Source of the DNA: an uncultured Alistipes sp. | GTDB taxonomy: Bacteria; Bacteroidota; Bacteroidia; Bacteroidales; Rikenellaceae | DNA: 53,630 nt | Direction of reading: 5' to 3' | NCBI GenBank assembly: GCA_947364365.1 | Contig: CANASP010000016.1 | Span: 1-53,630, forward strand | Part shown: in pieces, positions 1,532 to 32,141 of the stretch | How positions within the stretch are numbered: the first letter of the stretch is position 1 | Layout of the letters: each line of letters opens with the position of its first letter | Made by a program: the position numbers and the translations under genes | Notes under the pieces: generated by a model | The model's database searches: none | What the model was told of the DNA's origin: nothing | What the model saw: only the letters and a program-made list of their open reading frames with translations

Positions 1532-3760
1532 TTAACGGTTGCCGGAGCGGTGTTCCGGGCGGTTCGCCATGATCTCGGCGAAGACCTCGCGCGCCGTGTC
1601 GATGCAGTCGCCCGCCGGGGCGGCGGGGTAGGGATTGGTCGCGCGGGCCCACGCCTCCTCGATGGCGTAGAAGTCGATCTCCTCGGTCGCCTCGCCCGCC
1701 ATGCAGCGCTCCATGTTCTCTATCCACCGCTGCCAGCGCACGGCGTAGAGGTCGCGCAGGATGCCGCTCCACTCCTTGTGGGCGTAGTCGTGCAGGCCCC
1801 CTTCGGCTGCCGCGCGGTCGCCCCACGATGCGATCTGCACGCGGGCGTTCCACTCCAGCAGCGCCTTGTCGGCCTCGCTGCGGCCCAGCGCGCGGGCCGC
1901 GGCGATCCAGCTCCCCACCATGAACTCGGGGTGCGTCGCCAGCAGCCGGTCCTGCAACAGCAACAGACGCATGAACCGCTTCGCCGCTGCGGCGAAGGCC
2001 TCGCGGTCGCCCGCGCGGTAGGCTGCGGCGAAGACCTTCTGCTGGAGCTTGCCTGCCTCGGCCACGGCCTGGCGGACGACGTCGATCAGGTCGTATTCGA
2101 AACGGGGGTTGCCGCGGTAGCCGTCGGAGGCCGCGAGCAGCAGCCGCGCGGCGTCGAACACATCCTGCGGGTCGTAGTAGTCGGTCGGGTGGGCCCACGT
2201 CGAGGCGCTGCGGAAGTCGAGGGTAGGCCGGGCGCAGAAGACCGATTCGTTGGTCCCCTCCTGCGTCGACGACTTGGGGCATGCGTAGACCGATCGCGCG
2301 AGCAGTTCCCAGGCCGCCTCGACCCGCTCGTCGTGCCGCCCGTAGCGGGCGCCGAGGTAGCCGTGCAGCCACTCCGCGCGCGTGAAGCGCCCGGCGCGCC
2401 ACGGCAACTCGGTGAGCAACTCGTACATCACGGGGTTGTTTCCGATGCCCTCGGGCGTGAGACCCACGCCGCGGAGCGTGCGGCCGGCACGGGGGTGTTC
2501 GAGGGCGTCGTAGAAGCCGTCGATCACCGTCTCCATCTTGCCGTGCAGCCCCACGTTGCCGCCGAAGTTGAGCAGCATGCAGTAGATCCACGGGTGGTCG
2601 CCGAACCCCTCTTCGCGGTACCACGGTGACGAGGGGGCGCCCCACTGGGGGCGCGACTCGCTGAAGAGGTCGAGCACGACGACGTCGTCGGCCGGCAGCG
2701 CGTCGATCATCGCCGCGCGGGGGTTGGCCTGCCAGGCCTGGATCACCCAGGCTGCGTCGGGCGAGCGGCGCTTCATCGCGTCGAGGATCGCCCGGCCTGA
2801 GGCCGGCAGGTCGACGCCCGCGACCGAGCCGCCCTCGTGGAAGGGGTCGCACGAGTAGTAGCGTGCAGGGCCGCACACCCGCTCCAGAGCGTCGTAGTAG
2901 CGCGCGGCGATCTCGCCGAAGCGGGGGTCCTGAGGCTGGAGGAAGGCCGGGCGGCGGAAACTGCCCCACAGCCCCGGATCGGCCACGTCGAGCCCCAGCC
3001 GCCCGCGGGCGTCGGAGGGGACCATGCCGGCGTAACCCGGCAGCACGGGCTCGATGTCCAGCTCGCGCATGCGGTCGAGGATCCGGCGGGCCAGCGCGGC
3101 ACGCTCGTCGTACCACCCCTCGGGCGAGGGGCCTCCCCACCCTTCGAGGTTGTTCATGAGCCACCAGGCCTGGAAGGCGGGCCCGGCGATGAAGCGGTCG
3201 ATCGAGGCCTCGTCGTAGCCCAGCGAGAGCAGCACGTCGCGCCATACGGCCTCCATGCCCACGGCCACGAGCGGCAGGTTGATGCCGTGCAGCGCCATCC
3301 AGTCGATCTCGCGCTCCCAGCGCTCCCAGTCCCAGAAGGCCATCGAGTAGGAGTACGTACAATAGTTGTAGGCGTAGCGCAGCGCGAGCGGCGAGGTGTG
3401 GCGCTCGGGTGCGGCGACCGCGGGCAGCACGTCGGGCAGGCGGGCGGTCATGCACTCCCAGGTGAGCTGCACGCCGGCATGGTATTTCAGGTACCAGTGG
3501 ATGCCGGCGGCGATGCTCACGTTGTCGTTGCCGCGCACGACCACGCGCCGGCCGCGCTGGTCGAGCTCGAAGAAGTCGACGTCGGAGGCGACGCGTTCGA
3601 TGACGAACTTTTTCGACGCGCCGGGGTCGATGCGTTCGAGCAGATCGGCGACGGGGTCGGTCGCGCGCCGCGCGGCGGCACGGAGGGGAAGCGCGGCGAG
3701 GAGCAGCGCGAGGACGAGGAGCGCGAGGCGGCTTTTCGGCCGGAGGGCGGTGTGGCGCAT
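1532..3760 (-). CDS. Alpha-N-acetylglucosaminidase (GH89, NAGLU-like), exported
   Basis: This is a 742-residue glycoside hydrolase that should remove terminal alpha-GlcNAc, for example from mucin glycans or heparan-sulfate fragments. The start at 3760 is chosen because it begins a clear signal peptide (basic MRHTALRPKSR, hydrophobic stretch to about residue 27, then ARAA-type cleavage) and lies 25 bases after a consensus -7 box; a longer frame would start upstream of that promoter. Domains in order are NAGLU_N, TIM barrel and C-terminal helical domain. The likely catalytic acids are E309 in DPFHEGG and E437 in TPEGIGNN, matching the two GH89 glutamates. SESRPQW near 368 is also typical. The promoter is carried on a palindromic repeat (3786-3857). 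The SMR gene follows in the same unit. Confidence 0.92.
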   Translation of the reverse strand: MRHTALRPKSRLALLVLALLLAALPLRAAARRATDPVADLLERIDPGASKKFVIERVASDVDFFELDQRGRRVVVRGNDNVSIAAGIHWYLKYHAGVQLTWECMTARLPDVLPAVAAPERHTSPLALRYAYNYCTYSYSMAFWDWERWEREIDWMALHGINLPLVAVGMEAVWRDVLLSLGYDEASIDRFIAGPAFQAWWLMNNLEGWGGPSPEGWYDERAALARRILDRMRELDIEPVLPGYAGMVPSDARGRLGLDVADPGLWGSFRRPAFLQPQDPRFGEIAARYYDALERVCGPARYYSCDPFHEGGSVAGVDLPASGRAILDAMKRRSPDAAWVIQAWQANPRAAMIDALPADDVVVLDLFSESRPQWGAPSSPWYREEGFGDHPWIYCMLLNFGGNVGLHGKMETVIDGFYDALEHPRAGRTLRGVGLTPEGIGNNPVMYELLTELPWRAGRFTRAEWLHGYLGARYGRHDERVEAAWELLARSVYACPKSSTQEGTNESVFCARPTLDFRSASTWAHPTDYYDPQDVFDAARLLLAASDGYRGNPRFEYDLIDVVRQAVAEAGKLQQKVFAAAYRAGDREAFAAAAKRFMRLLLLQDRLLATHPEFMVGSWIAAARALGRSEADKALLEWNARVQIASWGDRAAAEGGLHDYAHKEWSGILRDLYAVRWQRWIENMERCMAGEATEEIDFYAIEEAWARATNPYPAAPAGDCIDTAREVFAEIMANRPEHRSGNR

Positions 3761-3785: not shown

Positions 3786-3857
3786 CAAATATACGGATAA
3801 GCGAGGGTAAAAACCAAACCGGTTCGGTTTTTACCGGGCGGAAGTATATTCGATGAA
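3786..3857 (-). promoter_or_regulatory. Promoter-bearing palindromic repeat, copy 1 (drives GH89 gene)
   Basis: Read on the minus strand: an upstream box CGAATATACT, a near-perfect palindrome of about 30 bp that contains TTTG (-33; CAAA at 3815-3818 on plus), a 21-base spacer ending in CTTATCCG, then TATATTTG (-7; 3786-3793). The -7 box lies 25 bases before the GH89 start codon. The same architecture recurs at 3860-3934 and 29068-29140. Confidence 0.75.
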
Positions 3858-3859
3858 GT

Positions 3860-3934
3860 CAAATATACGGATAAGGCCCGGGAAACCTAAACTTGTTTTG
3901 GGTTTCCCGAGCCGGAGTATATTCGGCGCGAAGC
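3860..3934 (-). repeat. Promoter-bearing palindromic repeat, copy 2
   Basis: On the minus strand it starts GCTTCGCGCCGAATATACTC, then has a 13-bp stem-loop (plus-strand arms at about 3879-3891 and 3897-3909), then CTTATCCGTATATTTG. The -7 box (3860-3867) is perfect but the -33 position reads TTTA rather than TTTG. It stands head-to-tail with copy 1, just after the amide hydrolase stop codon, so it may be a second, weaker promoter for the GH89 gene. Confidence 0.65.
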
Positions 3935-3936
3935 CG

Positions 3937-3972
3937 GCGGACGGAGCGGCGGACGGAGCGGCGGACGGAGCG
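3937..3972. repeat. Three perfect 12-bp tandem repeats
   Basis: The unit GCGGACGGAGCG occurs three times in a row (3937, 3949, 3961), followed by a degenerate fourth copy, between the stop codon of the amide hydrolase and repeat copy 2. Confidence 0.9.
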
Positions 3973-3982
3973 GCGGGCGGCG

Positions 3983-5053
3983 TCACGAGTCGATGCGGAG
4001 CATCTCCACGGGCTGCCGCTGCCGGAGATCGAGCGGACGGGTGCGGTAGTCCGTGCGGTCGAAGTCGATCGTGCGGAGGTCGATGCAGCGGATCGTGTTG
4101 TCGTAGGCCGTCTTGTAGTAGATCATGCGGTTCGTGAGATCGATCGCCGAGGTCCACTGCGTGGCGCTGGGGATGTCGGGCGCCTCGCCCGCGGGGTGTT
4201 CGATGCCGATGGGGATGTCGAAGGCGTTGAGCAGGTGGAAGCATTGCATGACGGTGTCGAAGGCCGTCGCGCGCTGCGGCGCCGTCGCGCGGTAGAAGGC
4301 TGCGCGGACGAAGCGCGAGGGCGGGGTGGCGTCGCCCGGCAACCCCAGGAAGCCCGAGTTGCCGCCCAGGGGGCGCAGTTCGAGGTCGCTCAGCTGCTGC
4401 GCGGTGGCGTCGCCGGGGCGGAGGTTGACGTAGTTGGCGAGGTTGGTGAGGTGCCATTCGAATCCCGGGGCGTTGGTCAGCACGCCGACCGGATTCTCGA
4501 AGAAGTGCGCCTCGCCGCCCGTGATCTCCAGCACCACCTGGCGACCCGACGGCTCGCCGATCCGCCAGTGGACCACCGACGAAGGCTCCAGCCCCGTGAT
4601 CCGGACCGATCCGATCGCCGCTTTCACCTCGTCGATCGTGGCGAACTGCGTGAGGATCCAGGCCACGAGTTGCAGATCGGCGATCGTGCGGTCGGCCTCC
4701 GAGGGGTCGTAGGGCGTGTAGCCGCCGTAGCGCGGGAAGAAGAAGAGCCCGGCCGAAAGTCCCTTCTCGTTGATGCCTTCGGCGATGAATTCGGGGCGGA
4801 CGACCGCCAGTCCCACCGTGCCGTAGCGGGCGCGGAACTCCATGCCGTTGTCGCCCGCGGGGGTGAACGACCGCAACGCGTGGTGGCGCGGGATGACGAC
4901 GCAGAGGCTTTGCAGGGGGCCGTGCGACCACTCGATCGTGCGGGCCTGGACGTAGCCGCCGTCGGCGGCCGTGAGCGAGATGCCGGTGCAGGCGATGGCC
5001 CGGACGGCGGGGGCGCACGCGCTGGCGGCGCCCAGTAACAGATTTTTGAGCAT
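3983..5053 (-). CDS. Linear amide C-N hydrolase (choloylglycine hydrolase / penicillin V acylase family), exported
   Basis: This 356-residue Ntn hydrolase has a signal peptide (MLKNLLLGAASACAPAVRAIA) that would be cut just before C22, leaving Cys as the N-terminal nucleophile, as in exported Bacteroidota members. After it come R38 (position 17 of the mature chain) in QARTIEW, the NEKGL segment, the TNAPGFEWHLTNLANYV block and PGDATPPSRFVRA, all typical of bile-salt hydrolases and penicillin V acylases. The position usually Asp in Gram-positive bile-salt hydrolases is Glu here. The start at 5053 is preferred because it gives the signal peptide. Whether the substrate is a conjugated bile acid, an acyl-homoserine lactone or another amide cannot be read from sequence. 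Confidence 0.88.
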   Translation of the reverse strand: MLKNLLLGAASACAPAVRAIACTGISLTAADGGYVQARTIEWSHGPLQSLCVVIPRHHALRSFTPAGDNGMEFRARYGTVGLAVVRPEFIAEGINEKGLSAGLFFFPRYGGYTPYDPSEADRTIADLQLVAWILTQFATIDEVKAAIGSVRITGLEPSSVVHWRIGEPSGRQVVLEITGGEAHFFENPVGVLTNAPGFEWHLTNLANYVNLRPGDATAQQLSDLELRPLGGNSGFLGLPGDATPPSRFVRAAFYRATAPQRATAFDTVMQCFHLLNAFDIPIGIEHPAGEAPDIPSATQWTSAIDLTNRMIYYKTAYDNTIRCIDLRTIDFDRTDYRTRPLDLRQRQPVEMLRIDS

Positions 5054-5119
5054 GTCGGTGTGCGGATTCGGTTTGTCTGCTGCCGACGTTGCAAAATCCG
5101 GGCCGGAAGCCGCATGTAC

Positions 5120-5218
5120 GCTTCGGGCAAGTCCGAAGCGGCGGCCCGCAGCCACCCCCGGCGGAGGGCCGCTCTGTCGGCTGGCGCCTACCTTCGTCCC
5201 TCCGCTGGCTGCGGACCG
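5120..5218. repeat. Intergenic ~100-bp inverted repeat, copy R1 (orientation B)
   Basis: A small CTTCGG/CCGAAG hairpin (5120-5139) is followed by a large inverted repeat with outer arms GGCCCGCAGCC and GGCTGCGGACC and inner arms GGCGGAGGG and CCCTCCGC. It fills the gap between the amide hydrolase and the glnS terminator. Sister copies are listed below. Confidence 0.85.
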
Positions 5219-29067: not shown

Positions 29068-29140
29068 GCTTCGCCGAAGATACTCACGTTCGGCAAACTG
29101 CAAACAAGTTTGCGTTTGCCCTCACTTATTCGTATCTTTG
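29068..29140 (+). promoter_or_regulatory. Promoter-bearing palindromic repeat, copy 3 (drives the TPR gene)
   Basis: Starts GCTTCGCCGAAGATACTC, then a 29-bp palindrome (29092-29120) that holds TTTG (29109-29112), a 20-base spacer ending CTTATTCG, and TATCTTTG (29133-29140). The ATG of the TPR gene is 20 bases further. Layout and key words match copies 1 and 2 on the other strand at 3.8-3.9 kb. Confidence 0.8.
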
Positions 29141-29159: not shown

Positions 29160-32141
29160 ATGCGACGATACTCCAAACTTCTGTGTGTTTTGGCTTTCGC
29201 CTCGGCCGGACTCTCGGCCCGCGGGGCGACGCCCGAGACGCTTTCCGCGCTGGGCCGCGGCCGCGATCTGTTCTCCTTCGGCCGCTGGGCGGATGCCCGG
29301 CACGAGTTCCTCTCCGCCCGCGAGACACTGGAGGCCGAGGACCTGGCCGAACGCCAGCAGATCGACTTCTACCTGGCGGCCTGCGCCGTCGAGTTGGGCG
29401 ACGGCGATGCCGAGGCGATGCTGCGCCGTTTCGAGGTGCGCTATCCCGGCTCGGTCTATGCCAACGACGTGCGCTTCTCGCTGGGCTCCTACTACTGTGC
29501 CGCCGGCGATACGAAGCGCGCGCGCGAGGCCTTCGGGCGGACCGACTACCGCCGTCTGACGGCGCAGCGGCGCGTGCAGTACGACGTGCGCATGGGCTAC
29601 GTCGCCTTCATGGAGGGCGACTACGCCGAGGCCTACGGCTATTTTGACCGGGTGCCCGCCCGCAGCGAATATGCCGACCATGCCGCCTACTACCGCGCCT
29701 ACATCGACTATGCCGAGGGTCGGTACGCCCGTGCCAAGCAGACCTTCCTCTCGCTCGAACGCAGCGACGCCTACCGCGACGTGGTGCCCTATTACCTGCT
29801 CCAGATCGAGTTTCGCGAGGGGAACTACCGCTATGTGGTCGAGCACGGCGAGGAGCTGGCCCGCCGGGCCGTCCCCGAGCGCCGTGCCGAGATCGAGCGC
29901 GCGATGGCCGAGGCGTGGTTCCACCTCGACGACTATGCCCGCACGATCGACCATCTCCAGGCCTTCCTCGATGCCGGGGGCCAGGCCGACCGCGACACCG
30001 ACTACCTGATGGGCTTCTCGCTCTACCGCACGGCCCGTTACGCCGATGCCGCCGAGTGGCTGCGCCGTGCGTGCGGCGCCGACGACGCCCTGACGCAGAA
30101 CGCCTCCTACCACCTGGCCGACTGCTATCTGCGTGCGGGCGACAAGCAGGCGGCGATGCAGTCGTTCGCCATGGCTGCCGCCGACGGGTTCGACGCCGAG
30201 ATCGCCGAGGATGCGCTGTTCAACTACGCCAAGCTGCAATACGAGCTGGGCGGCGGCGCCTTCAACGGGGCGATCAACCTCCTGCAACGCTATATCAACC
30301 GCTATCCCTCCTCTCCGCGTACGCCCGAGGCCCGCACGCTGCTGGCCGCGGCCTACTACAACTCGCGCGACTACGACGCCGCCTACCGCGCCATCAAGGC
30401 GATGCCCTCGACCGATGCCGAGACGCGCGCCGCCTTGCAGAAGATCGCCTACTTCCGCGGCCTGGAGGCCTATGCCGGGGGCGACATGCGTGCCGCGCGC
30501 AGCTATTTCGCCGAGTCGGCCGCGCTCAATGTCAGCGCGCGCTATGCGGCGCTCAACGCCTTCTGGCAGGGGGAGATCGCCTTCTCGGAGGGCGACTATG
30601 CGCTGGCCGCCACCCGTTACGACACCTACCTGAAGCGTGCGCCGCGCAATACGCGGGAATACGCCATGGCGTGGTACAACCTCGGCTACTGCGATTTCGC
30701 CCGCGAGCGGATGTCGTCGGCCGAGAGCGCGTTCGAACGCTTCCTCTCGCTCTACGGCGCCCGCGACCGCTACCGCGCCGACGCGCTGAACCGGCTGGGC
30801 GACGTGCGTTATGCCGCGCGCCGTTTCGACGAGGCGGTCGCCCAATACGACAAGGCGATCGCCCTGGGCGGCGACGAGGCCCACTACGCCCGTTACAAGC
30901 GGGCCGTGTCGCTGGGCATCCTCGGCCGTGCGGAGCAGAAGGAGCAGGCTCTGCGGCAGATCGTCGCCGACGGACAGGGCGCCTATGTCGATGCCGCGGC
31001 CTACGAGCTGGGCCGCACCTGCATCGCCCAGCAGCGCTATGCCGACGGTGCCGCGGCGCTGGAGCGCTTCGTCGCCGACTTCCCCTCGTCGCCCCGTCTG
31101 GCGCAGGCCTATTCCGATCTGGGACTGGCCTACCTCAATCTGGGCGACCGGTCCCGGTCGCTGGCCTATTATCAGAAGGCGGTCGCGGCGGCTCCCCGTT
31201 CGCAGGAGGCGCGCGACGCCATGCAGGGCATCCGCGACATCTATGTTTCGGAGGGCGACGTCGACGCCTACTTCGACTACGCGGCCAAGGCCGGTATGGA
31301 GAGCGACCTGACGACCCTTTCGCGCGATTCGCTGTCGTTCGCCGCGGCGCAGAAGCTCTATCTCGACGGCAGCGACGAGGCGGCCGTCAAGTCGCTGCGC
31401 AGCTACGTGAAGAGCTACCCCCGGGGATCGTACCTTACCGACGCGCTCTACTACCTGAGCGACTGCTACCTCCGCACGGGCGAGCGCCAGGCGGCCATCG
31501 AGACCCTGACGACGCTGGCGGCCGAGGCTCCCAACCGCTATTCGCAGAACGTGCTGGAGCACCTCTCGGAGATGACCTACGCCGACAAGCGCTACGACGA
31601 GGCTGCGGCGGCCTACCGCAAGCTCTACGACGTGACCCCCGCGGCCGCCGGGCGCGAGGCGGCCATGACGGGCTACGTGCGCTCGACGATCGCCACGGGC
31701 GACGCCGCACGCATCGGGGCGCTGGCCGACGAACTCGTTTCGCTGCCGGATGTCGGCGCCACGGCCCTGCGCGAGGCGCGCTTCGCCTGCGCCGAGCAGT
31801 TGCGCACGGCGGGACGGCGCGATGCGGCGGCTGAATATTACCGCGAGCTCGCCCGGGAGGTCCGCACGGCCGAGGGTTCGGCGGCGGCCTACTACCTGAT
31901 CGAGGCGCTCTTCGAGGCGGGCGACACGGAGGCTGCCGAAAAGGCCGTCTTCGCCTACTCCGAGCGTTCGCCGCGCGCCTACTGGCTCGCCCGCGCCTTT
32001 CTCATTCTGGGCGACATCTACGTCGCCAAGGGCGATACGTTCCAGGCCCGTGCGACCTACCAGAGCATCGCCGACGGCTATTCGCCCGCCGACGACGGCA
32101 TTGTCGACGAGGCCAAGGCCCGGATCCAAAAACTCAACTGA
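29160..32141 (+). CDS. Large exported TPR-repeat protein
   Basis: This 993-residue protein has a signal peptide (MRRYSKLLCVLAFASAGLSARG) and then almost only tetratricopeptide-type helix pairs to the C-terminus. Repeats are easy to see as A-x-x-x-Y/F and G-D/N-x-x-A spacing (GDYAEAYGYFDR, GDYALAATRYDTYLKR, RFDEAVAQYDKAIALGG, RYDEAAAAYRKLYDV). It is probably periplasmic and serves as a scaffold. It ends two bases before the start of a barrel-like protein, and the pair are almost surely made together. I do not recognise a specific family beyond TPR. The start follows a clear promoter. Confidence 0.88.
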   Translation: MRRYSKLLCVLAFASAGLSARGATPETLSALGRGRDLFSFGRWADARHEFLSARETLEAEDLAERQQIDFYLAACAVELGDGDAEAMLRRFEVRYPGSVYANDVRFSLGSYYCAAGDTKRAREAFGRTDYRRLTAQRRVQYDVRMGYVAFMEGDYAEAYGYFDRVPARSEYADHAAYYRAYIDYAEGRYARAKQTFLSLERSDAYRDVVPYYLLQIEFREGNYRYVVEHGEELARRAVPERRAEIERAMAEAWFHLDDYARTIDHLQAFLDAGGQADRDTDYLMGFSLYRTARYADAAEWLRRACGADDALTQNASYHLADCYLRAGDKQAAMQSFAMAAADGFDAEIAEDALFNYAKLQYELGGGAFNGAINLLQRYINRYPSSPRTPEARTLLAAAYYNSRDYDAAYRAIKAMPSTDAETRAALQKIAYFRGLEAYAGGDMRAARSYFAESAALNVSARYAALNAFWQGEIAFSEGDYALAATRYDTYLKRAPRNTREYAMAWYNLGYCDFARERMSSAESAFERFLSLYGARDRYRADALNRLGDVRYAARRFDEAVAQYDKAIALGGDEAHYARYKRAVSLGILGRAEQKEQALRQIVADGQGAYVDAAAYELGRTCIAQQRYADGAAALERFVADFPSSPRLAQAYSDLGLAYLNLGDRSRSLAYYQKAVAAAPRSQEARDAMQGIRDIYVSEGDVDAYFDYAAKAGMESDLTTLSRDSLSFAAAQKLYLDGSDEAAVKSLRSYVKSYPRGSYLTDALYYLSDCYLRTGERQAAIETLTTLAAEAPNRYSQNVLEHLSEMTYADKRYDEAAAAYRKLYDVTPAAAGREAAMTGYVRSTIATGDAARIGALADELVSLPDVGATALREARFACAEQLRTAGRRDAAAEYYRELAREVRTAEGSAAAYYLIEALFEAGDTEAAEKAVFAYSERSPRAYWLARAFLILGDIYVAKGDTFQARATYQSIADGYSPADDGIVDEAKARIQKLN

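Follow-up and report, generated by a model that had tools for sequence, protein, structure and literature searches.

A folded, promoter-carrying miniature repeat of Alistipes that probably targets the -7 box of existing promoters and rebuilds them

A short folded repeat, termed the unit here, carries a promoter at its 3' end, recurs throughout the genome of an uncultured Alistipes sp. and, judged from sequence at the sites compared, is shown to be an insertion into promoters that relatives have without it. The unit is probably a miniature, non-autonomous mobile element that targets promoters and rebuilds them. It would land directly 3' of a native -7 box, TAnnTTTG, in the same direction as the promoter; the proximal unit would then serve as the working promoter, and a further unit could land on the box of the previous one. 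The mobilising enzyme would recognise a folded single strand, either DNA or RNA, and the 5' arm of the unit (GAAKATA), by pairing with the box, would guide it to its -7 target. The window analysed is a stretch of 53,630 nucleotides (contig CANASP010000016.1 of assembly GCA_947364365.1), and it contains three units. The units, their parts and the genes that they serve are as follows.

1532..3760, minus strand: gene served by units 1 and 2, GH89 (NAGLU), alpha-N-acetylglucosaminidase (Pfam PF05089, PF12971, PF12972)
3786..3859, minus strand: unit 1, proximal to the GH89 gene (covariance model E 8e-20; RNA fold with S1, S2 and S3, z -4.8)
3786..3793, minus strand: -7 box TATATTTG of unit 1, the 3' arm of outer stem S1 (sequence)
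3806..3835, no strand: stem-loop S3 of unit 1 (inverted repeat I2, 15-nt arms, 93% complementary)
3815..3818, minus strand: -33 TTTG of unit 1, within the S3 3' arm and 21 nt upstream of the box (sequence)
3860..3932, minus strand: unit 2, distal (covariance model E 3.7e-19; RNA fold z -5.1)
3860..3867, minus strand: -7 box TATATTTG of unit 2 (sequence)
3875..3913, no strand: stem-loop S3, with S2, of unit 2 (inverted repeat I1, 17-nt arms, 88% complementary)
3888..3891, minus strand: TTTA of unit 2 in place of the -33 TTTG, 20 nt upstream of the box (sequence)
29068..29140, plus strand: unit 3, single, upstream of the TPR gene (covariance model E 1.1e-26; RNA fold z -4.3)
29068..29083, plus strand: 5' linker GCTTCGC and S1 5' arm CGAAGATAC of unit 3 (alignment and fold)
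29092..29120, no strand: stem-loop S3 of unit 3; a single T of its 5' arm is unpaired (fold)
29109..29112, plus strand: -33 TTTG of unit 3, within the S3 3' arm and 20 nt upstream of the box (sequence)
29133..29140, plus strand: -7 box TATCTTTG of unit 3 (sequence)
29160..32141, plus strand: gene served by unit 3, TPR protein (Pfam TPR families)

Units 1 and 2 form a two-unit head-to-tail array with a gap of 0. No recognisable -7 box was present in the sequence upstream of unit 2 or in CAATTTTTT, which directly precedes unit 3. The first-pass annotation of the window had described three elements built on one plan, and the words that it named (CGAAKATACT, a palindrome, CTTATYCG and TATMTTTG) are all present in the sequence. 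It had also placed a -33 TTTG within each palindrome, which is correct for the copies at 3786 and 29068; the copy at 3860 has TTTA instead. Two copies were said to lie at a suitable distance for driving genes, in agreement with the 25 nt between box and ATG for GH89 and the 19 nt for the TPR gene, the latter being present in 22 same-genus genomes (own included).

Given that all three window units belong to the 46 units of this genome from which the covariance model was built, their E-values are not independent, and independent support is provided by the genome-wide count of the 3' word and by model-free folds. With up to 3 mismatches, the window has 7 occurrences of CTTATNCGTATNTTTG, 3 of them exact, where 0.57 would be expected, and exact copies in the genome numbered 41; the reversed control of this pattern, with up to 1 mismatch, was found 0 times in the genome. 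A search of the window with the model filters off returned 9 further matches up to E 1 beyond the three units, and the best of these (E 0.0013 and 0.016) were reverse-strand echoes of the unit palindromes.

The unit is ~73 bp long, with a range of about 73-86 bp. Read in the direction of the promoter, its 5' half consists of a linker (commonly GCTTCGC), the 5' arm of S1 (CGAAGATAC or CTTAGATAC) and a loop; the middle comprises a short S2 arm, TCGG, the variable hairpin S3, CTC, the S2 3' arm and TTATTCG; and the 3' end is the S1 3' arm GTATCTTTG, the last 8 bases, TATCTTTG, forming the -7 box. All three stems, the outer S1, the short S2 and the variable S3, covary. CGAAKATACT and CGTATMTTTG are the arms of S1, in which K (G, T or A) and M (C, A or T) change together, and most units have GA (27 of 46) or an unpaired TT at S1 positions 9 and 10. 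S2 occurs as GC/GC, GT/AC, GCC/GGC, GTC/GAC and GGC/GCC, and is paired over 2/2, 3/3, 3/4 or 4/4 positions in 123 of the 150 units, out of 193, that could be parsed by pattern. The inner stem carries the -33 TTTG in its 3' arm, 20-21 nt upstream of the -7 box.

For the 46 own-genome units, 90.0% of cells pair, compared with 80.9% in shuffled and 34-50% in slid alignments, and 81 both-sided changes were counted against 28.8 in shuffles. Within S3, both-sided changes occur at 7 of 13 pairs, one pair alone being changed on both sides in 23 of the 46 units. Over the alignment as a whole, the number of pairs having any both-sided change, 8, is not above that of shuffles (7.6). The same behavior was observed in 89 distinct matches from stretches of three other genomes (88.2% of cells pairing against 75.8% shuffled; 232 both-sided changes against 70.0), a set that was aligned with the model and is therefore biased towards it. 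The arms thus differ in sequence while pairing is kept, as had been proposed from the three window copies. Such retention of pairing with varying S3 sequence would be expected if a folded strand, and not a DNA sequence, is what is recognised. When 22 units from 15 loci whose records are not named Alistipes or Rikenellaceae were folded singly with RNA parameters, S1 closed the unit in 20, two of these closures spanning 6 pairs only, and S3 was a different, often longer, AT-rich hairpin. Within the hairpin of one stem type (AAATAAATTTG), at L209, L214, L240 and L255, lies TAAATTTG, itself a TAnnTTTG match. A unit at L015 1439-1516 (G000 C7:103388-103465) resembles two back-to-back 3' halves and has a promoter-like end on each side.

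The genome of the window (G000; 2.15 Mb in 38 contigs, 87% complete) contains 91 model matches at E<=0.1, of which 80 are at E<=0.001, far beyond the three copies originally seen; the 91 include a few partial matches or reverse-strand echoes. Across 61 genomes a match at E<=0.001 was found in 35, namely in 31 of the 37 same-genus genomes, counting that of the window, and in 4 of the 24 remaining, and six same-genus genomes had 0 such matches. Numbers were patchy: at least 77 in G000, 77 in G012, 67 in G002, 38 in G007, 32 in G025, 23 in G009 and 20 in G014, the high counts being lower bounds because no more than 80 candidates per genome were scored, with stricter filters. The junction pattern TATMTTTGGCTKCGCCKWAKATACT occurs in at least 115 stretches of named genome contigs. 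Among the 80 of these listed, for 38 of which the sequence context was inspected, most carry the names Alistipes and Rikenellaceae, with Prevotella, Prevotellaceae, Bacteroidaceae, one Muribaculaceae and one Porphyromonadaceae record also represented; given that most records are metagenome-assembled genomes, single taxon labels may be wrong. The isolate Alistipes muris DSM 112343 is among the listed matches that carry units, and the Prevotella-named records have units with their own AT-rich stems.

Two exact unit patterns gave 0 matches in viral contigs, and a 308-base array query gave 0 in plasmids. The same query matched two unverified “Bacteriophage sp.” faecal records, MT838894.1 (L395) and MT838590.1 (L396). 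Among the 9 open reading frames scanned in both, Pfam named only a sodium:solute symporter, a tyrosine integrase and an AIR-synthase-like protein, and given the cellular appearance of these genes the two records were taken as cellular DNA. Carriage by phage or plasmid was rejected on these grounds.

A promoter consensus of TTTG at -33 and TANNTTTGY at -7 is given in the available text of PMC8748976. The ends of arrays were compiled for 95 distinct arrays or singles from G000, G002, G007 and G012, comprising 188 matches at E<=0.01 (some of them partial, and one or more a reverse-strand echo), for which stretches were taken around the listed matches: 20 in G002, 9 in G007 and 11 in G012. The terminal 8-mer of these ends is TATCTTTG in 49 and TATATTTG in 15. 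TTTG stands 20 or 21 nt before the box at 58 of the 95 ends, and 14-15 nt before it in 38 cases, the latter being the second TTTG of some stems. An open reading frame of at least 120 amino acids starting with ATG follows within 150 nt in 77 of 95 cases (median distance 23 nt), and 34 of 95 have one on the divergent side. The genes served are mixed and include the housekeeping genes aspS, lepA and tkt, together with others recognised by eye from the sequence, which we take to be dnaX, murA, dapF, aroQ and truA. By re-supplying the promoter that it displaces, the unit would be able to settle before essential genes.

Upstream gaps of the orthologues of four genes were compared across same-genus genomes with a model cut-off of E<=0.1. 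Units were found in 7 of 86 gaps, with 79 empty, in favour of the copied, mobile promoter module with a selected palindrome proposed in the first-pass annotation; this proposal is also supported by the many genomic copies and the covariation. Filled gaps comprise 3 of 20 for lepA (four units in G000, two in G007, one in G002), 2 of 22 for tkt (one in G000, three in G012), 1 of 22 for aspS (five in G000, one of them weak) and 1 of 22 for the TPR gene of the window (G000). The 86 do not include an incomplete tkt locus (L238, G021) or a further lepA site in G005 for which no locus was available. Given that the four genes were picked for their units in this genome, the filled fraction applies to these genes only. 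Three species thus differ at the lepA promoter, with 4, 2 and 1 units whose stem types are not the same. In the TPR gap of G007 a decayed half unit, missed by the model, was recognised by eye.

The empty gaps contain exactly one TAnnTTTG in 63 cases, more than one in 8 and none in 8, as counted by hand over the 200-230 nt before the start; those with no exact TAnnTTTG are tkt in G004, G008, G019 and G020, lepA in G003 and the TPR gene in G002, G008 and G020. In a few empty gaps the box lies at least 100 nt from the start. The empty aspS site of G007 reads AATTTTAGC-TACCTTTG-TCAATCGCAAGAAGCCAACA; at the filled site of G000, the last unit ends CTTATTCG-TATCTTTG and is followed by TCATTCGCAAGAAAACAATA in an exact join. 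Both boxes are kept at lepA in G002, which reads AAAATTCG-TATATTTG, then a unit ending CTTATTCG-TATATTTG, then CATTCGCT-ATG, and at tkt in G000, where TTTTTTCC-TATATTTG stands before the unit. At such sites the unit is directly 3' of the native box, with its own box at its end and the native leader adjoining. Upstream of the TPR gene in G000, the sequence before the unit has no recognisable box, though most relatives have one. In the gaps compared, units would replace an existing promoter at a roughly similar distance from the start codon and not create one. The expectation that such a module would rewire the genes that receive it was therefore too strong, the compared units replacing a promoter that relatives already have.

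Directly upstream of the leftmost unit, 19 of the 95 arrays or singles have an 8-mer that matches TAnnTTTG exactly (background 0.04%) and 8 have one with a single mismatch, one of the 8 being an echo (background 0.27%). The remaining 68, both window sites among them, have two or more mismatches, and such mismatched upstream boxes probably represent decayed boxes or truncated units. Upstream box and own box agree at M in 59 of the 63 first units with an upstream TATNTTTG that the filter took as native, a figure in which species is a confounder and which the search pattern itself helped to select. In the 4 with differing boxes (L009, L018, L044 and L110), the K of the unit pairs with its own M; thus, the 3' box is the unit's own and not simply a target duplication. 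Targets with TATATTTG tend to hold T-type units, which may reflect guide pairing, subject to the same confounding. A MITE of a DDE transposon would have terminal inverted repeats and a target-site duplication; in the unit the S1 arms are inverted repeats, with the start of the unit 7-8 nt outside the S1 5' arm, and TAnnTTTG can stand on both sides. Pairing of this 5' arm is possible with the box of its own unit and, within arrays, with the box upstream, giving a junction hairpin.

The joint between a unit and its upstream box has the potential to form the hairpin TATCTTTGGC-TTC-GCCGAAGATA, in which the linkers change in step (GGC/GCC, GAC/GTC and GAT/ATC). Of the 46 own-genome linkers, 31 pair around T-N-C, 6 around C-T-C and 1 around A-T-C, the C-T-C linkers being the end of a longer linker; the other 8 are unpaired over the first seven letters. 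G-N-A is a very stable loop in DNA. The T-N-C junction loop is G-N-A on the other strand, which is suggestive of a stable DNA loop.

Successive units in arrays are joined with a gap of 0 in 63 of 84 cases. For 124 array units, the closest relative is elsewhere in the genome in 92, in the same array in 25 and tied in 7, and neighbouring units are at least 95% identical in 8 of 75 cases. Most arrays are thus mosaics, and repeated insertion of units fits better than tandem duplication, with some duplication within arrays alongside insertion. Most junction boxes remain TATCTTTG or TATATTTG. Boxes inside an array, or just before a unit, are sometimes TACTTTG or TACATTG, one base shorter (CACATTG was also seen); 13 cases were noted in several genomes (L006, L039, L054, L077, L095, L191, L335, L358, L359, L362 and L387). 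In arrays having such altered internal boxes, the box nearest to the gene mostly keeps the consensus, as though the proximal promoter alone were meant to work.

The two indications of which strand folds are in conflict. On the sense strand, G.T-type cells outnumber A.C-type cells by 183 to 35, which favours the top strand, with 114 of the 183 coming from two single pairs (75 and 39). With DNA parameters, the antisense (bottom) strand folds better in 136 of 147 units, an advantage partly explained by composition, as indicated by plain shuffles.

A resident mobilising enzyme was sought by Pfam family. The Y1 transposase (PF01797) was found in 0 of 37 same-genus genomes at E<=0.001, the most unit-rich included, and in 19 of 24 other genomes of the order. 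IS110 (PF01548) was likewise found in 0 of 37, as was Y2/IS91 (PF04986), whose control was found in 0 of 14 control genomes and which matched 4 of the 61 genomes searched. Given that 14 of the 37 genomes are at least 90% complete, the unit-rich G002 and G007 among them, incompleteness alone is unlikely to explain the missing enzymes. RAYT, IS91 and IS110 were rejected as resident mobilisers on these counts. Possible mobilisers are tyrosine recombinases, reverse transcriptases and unusual HUH proteins.

These counts bear directly on the possibility that the unit is an ordinary REP/REPIN or PATE-like element whose REP-associated or IS200/IS605 Y1 transposase has been lost or missed, which is considered unlikely. 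Like REP/REPIN sequences with their RAYT, the unit is short, intergenic, high in copy number, non-autonomous and patchy, with a mismatched or bulged hairpin in the single strand. However, REP/REPIN sequences need the Y1 enzyme that none of the 37 same-genus genomes yielded (own genome 87% complete), whereas most other genomes of the order were positive; the 46-unit alignment shows no invariant tag (GTAG or CGTC) at the base of the palindrome; and REPINs are inverted dimers, whereas the units stand head to tail, with the one back-to-back unit of L015. According to the available text of PMC3733652, head-to-tail REP dimers are absent or rare in most genomes. The unit also differs from REP/REPIN in its promoter target, its carried promoter and the lack of conservation of its stem sequences. 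By these marks it does not belong with REP sequences, no tag, Y1 enzyme or inversion having been found.

IS608 inserts 3' of a short target that is repeated by the element's own 3' end. The unit resembles IS200/IS605 elements, and their small derivatives such as PATE, in insertion 3' of a target matching its own end, guide-like pairing, fixed orientation and an irregular hairpin, and insertion 3' of a short, specific target that is kept was found at lepA in G002 and tkt in G000. By contrast, IS200/IS605 elements have two subterminal hairpins, whereas the unit is one compound hairpin with a -7-box target, and no Y1 gene was found in the 37 genomes. What else speaks for such kinship comes from the literature: the available text of PMC8266576 describes IS200/IS605 transposases as using folded hairpins with unpaired bases and guide pairing, 5' to the palindromes, to choose the cleavage site, and that of PMC6006769 describes a Bacteroidetes TnpA subclass flanked by atypical structures that are copied elsewhere in the genome.

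The fold might instead belong to a structured regulatory RNA (a leader, insulator or attenuator), with transcripts from an upstream promoter beginning close to the 5' arm of the unit and carrying the whole S1-S2-S3 fold, which would terminate or silence them such that only the proximal promoter serves the gene. This explanation, judged quite unlikely, draws on the RNA folds of the window units (z -4.3 to -5.1), the 183 to 35 ratio of G.U-type to A.C-type cells on the sense strand and the alteration of some internal array boxes to TACTTTG or TACATTG. It leaves unexplained the insertion at the -7 box of unrelated genes, the mosaic arrays and the inclusion of the unit's own -7 box in the fold, and no Rfam family was found on a unit in the window or at six unit-bearing loci. 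A structured-RNA role may be the reason why insertions are tolerated and is compatible with the mobile-element explanation.

That the units are not mobile at all, and represent an old shared promoter repeat with arrays grown by slippage and patchiness produced by gene conversion and loss, is very improbable. The presence of at least one match in 31 of 37 same-genus genomes, the 25 array units closest to their own array and the 8 near-identical neighbour pairs are as this explanation would have it; against it stand the 79 orthologous gaps without a model-visible unit, the three different unit complements of the lepA promoter and the 92 array units whose closest relative is elsewhere. Least credible of all is a regulon operator, in which the palindromic site of a regulator over the -33 box was multiplied by ordinary duplication: the -33 box is indeed covered by a palindrome and copies stand before many genes, but a dimeric regulator needs sequence and not pairing, S3 differs between units with pairing kept (both sides changed at one pair in half of the 46 units) and is wholly different in Prevotella-named records, and the genes served are mixed, with aspS, lepA and tkt among them. 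A site for a shared regulator or sigma factor, as suggested in the first-pass annotation, was rejected since the stems change sequence across units and genera with pairing kept.

The preferred explanation, a miniature element that targets promoters, was compared with other known systems. Integron attC sites have a conserved outer stem, unpaired central loops, an extrahelical base and a hypervariable terminal stem, and occur in tandem arrays, all of which have counterparts in the unit; the RYYYAAC/GTTRRRY pair of attC was not seen by eye in the unit consensus, nor were cassette genes seen. Mobile promoters, or promoter propagation, involve the copying of promoter sequence to new sites. At the level of sequence the unit is a mobile promoter, with the same promoter at several unlinked sites and gain or loss between relatives; it differs in entering an existing promoter at base precision and in its conserved fold. 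BrickBuilt of Porphyromonas gingivalis is a MITE-like element with tandem 23-nt repeats and promoter activity (PMC4596501). Like the unit, it is intergenic, tandemly repeated and found in Bacteroidales, but its 23-nt repeats, leader and tail, and inverted termini are different, and the available text of that source makes no mention of a -7 target (PMC4596501).

No curated Rfam family was found on the window units at gathering scores. Six unit-bearing loci searched at E<=5 gave six weak matches, none on a unit above its gathering score, one of them (L017 1554-1631) lying just after a unit. A literature search, with subscription journals mostly outside its scope, found no description of the unit, and a text search for the unit's own sequence words found no related paper. 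The unit is therefore apparently an undescribed promoter-targeting, promoter-rebuilding miniature element, and the case would be for more if its enzyme is new. A broader proposal, that it represents a new class of promoter-parasitic folded unit with a GAAKATA guide and an enzyme outside Y1, Y2 and IS110, which has escaped selection and spread across Bacteroidales, is possible but tentative and somewhat doubtful.

If this is true, the rebuilding of a working promoter at the target would allow the unit to escape selection against insertion, to stack in arrays and to spread through the promoters of essential genes across Bacteroidales. Insertion of a mobile element into a promoter is normally disruptive; on the preferred explanation, the unit hits the most constrained promoter positions but restores them, so that it can stand before genes such as aspS, lepA and tkt. 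Many promoters in unit-rich Bacteroidales genomes would then have been delivered and not inherited with the gene, with a hairpin over the -33 region, and promoter turnover without gene loss would become testable. It would also point to an enzyme that acts with a -7-box target, and comparative studies of promoters and 5' leaders in this order would meet promoters derived from repeats.

Other features were observed near the units. Directly upstream of the two-unit array, at 3935-3980 of the window, is a 12-bp tandem repeat (CGGCGGACGGAG), and just upstream of the array a choloylglycine hydrolase family protein (bile salt hydrolase-like) is encoded at 3986-5155 on the minus strand. A G+C-rich palindromic word, GGCTGCGGSCYGCC, occurs 9 times in the window with up to 1 mismatch, against 0.63 expected, at positions 5140, 13918, 28904, 28966, 35232, 40553, 42601, 42843 and 50566. 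A longer form of this word was found exactly in 6 of 394 loci, and similar words stand upstream of several units in the genome of the window.
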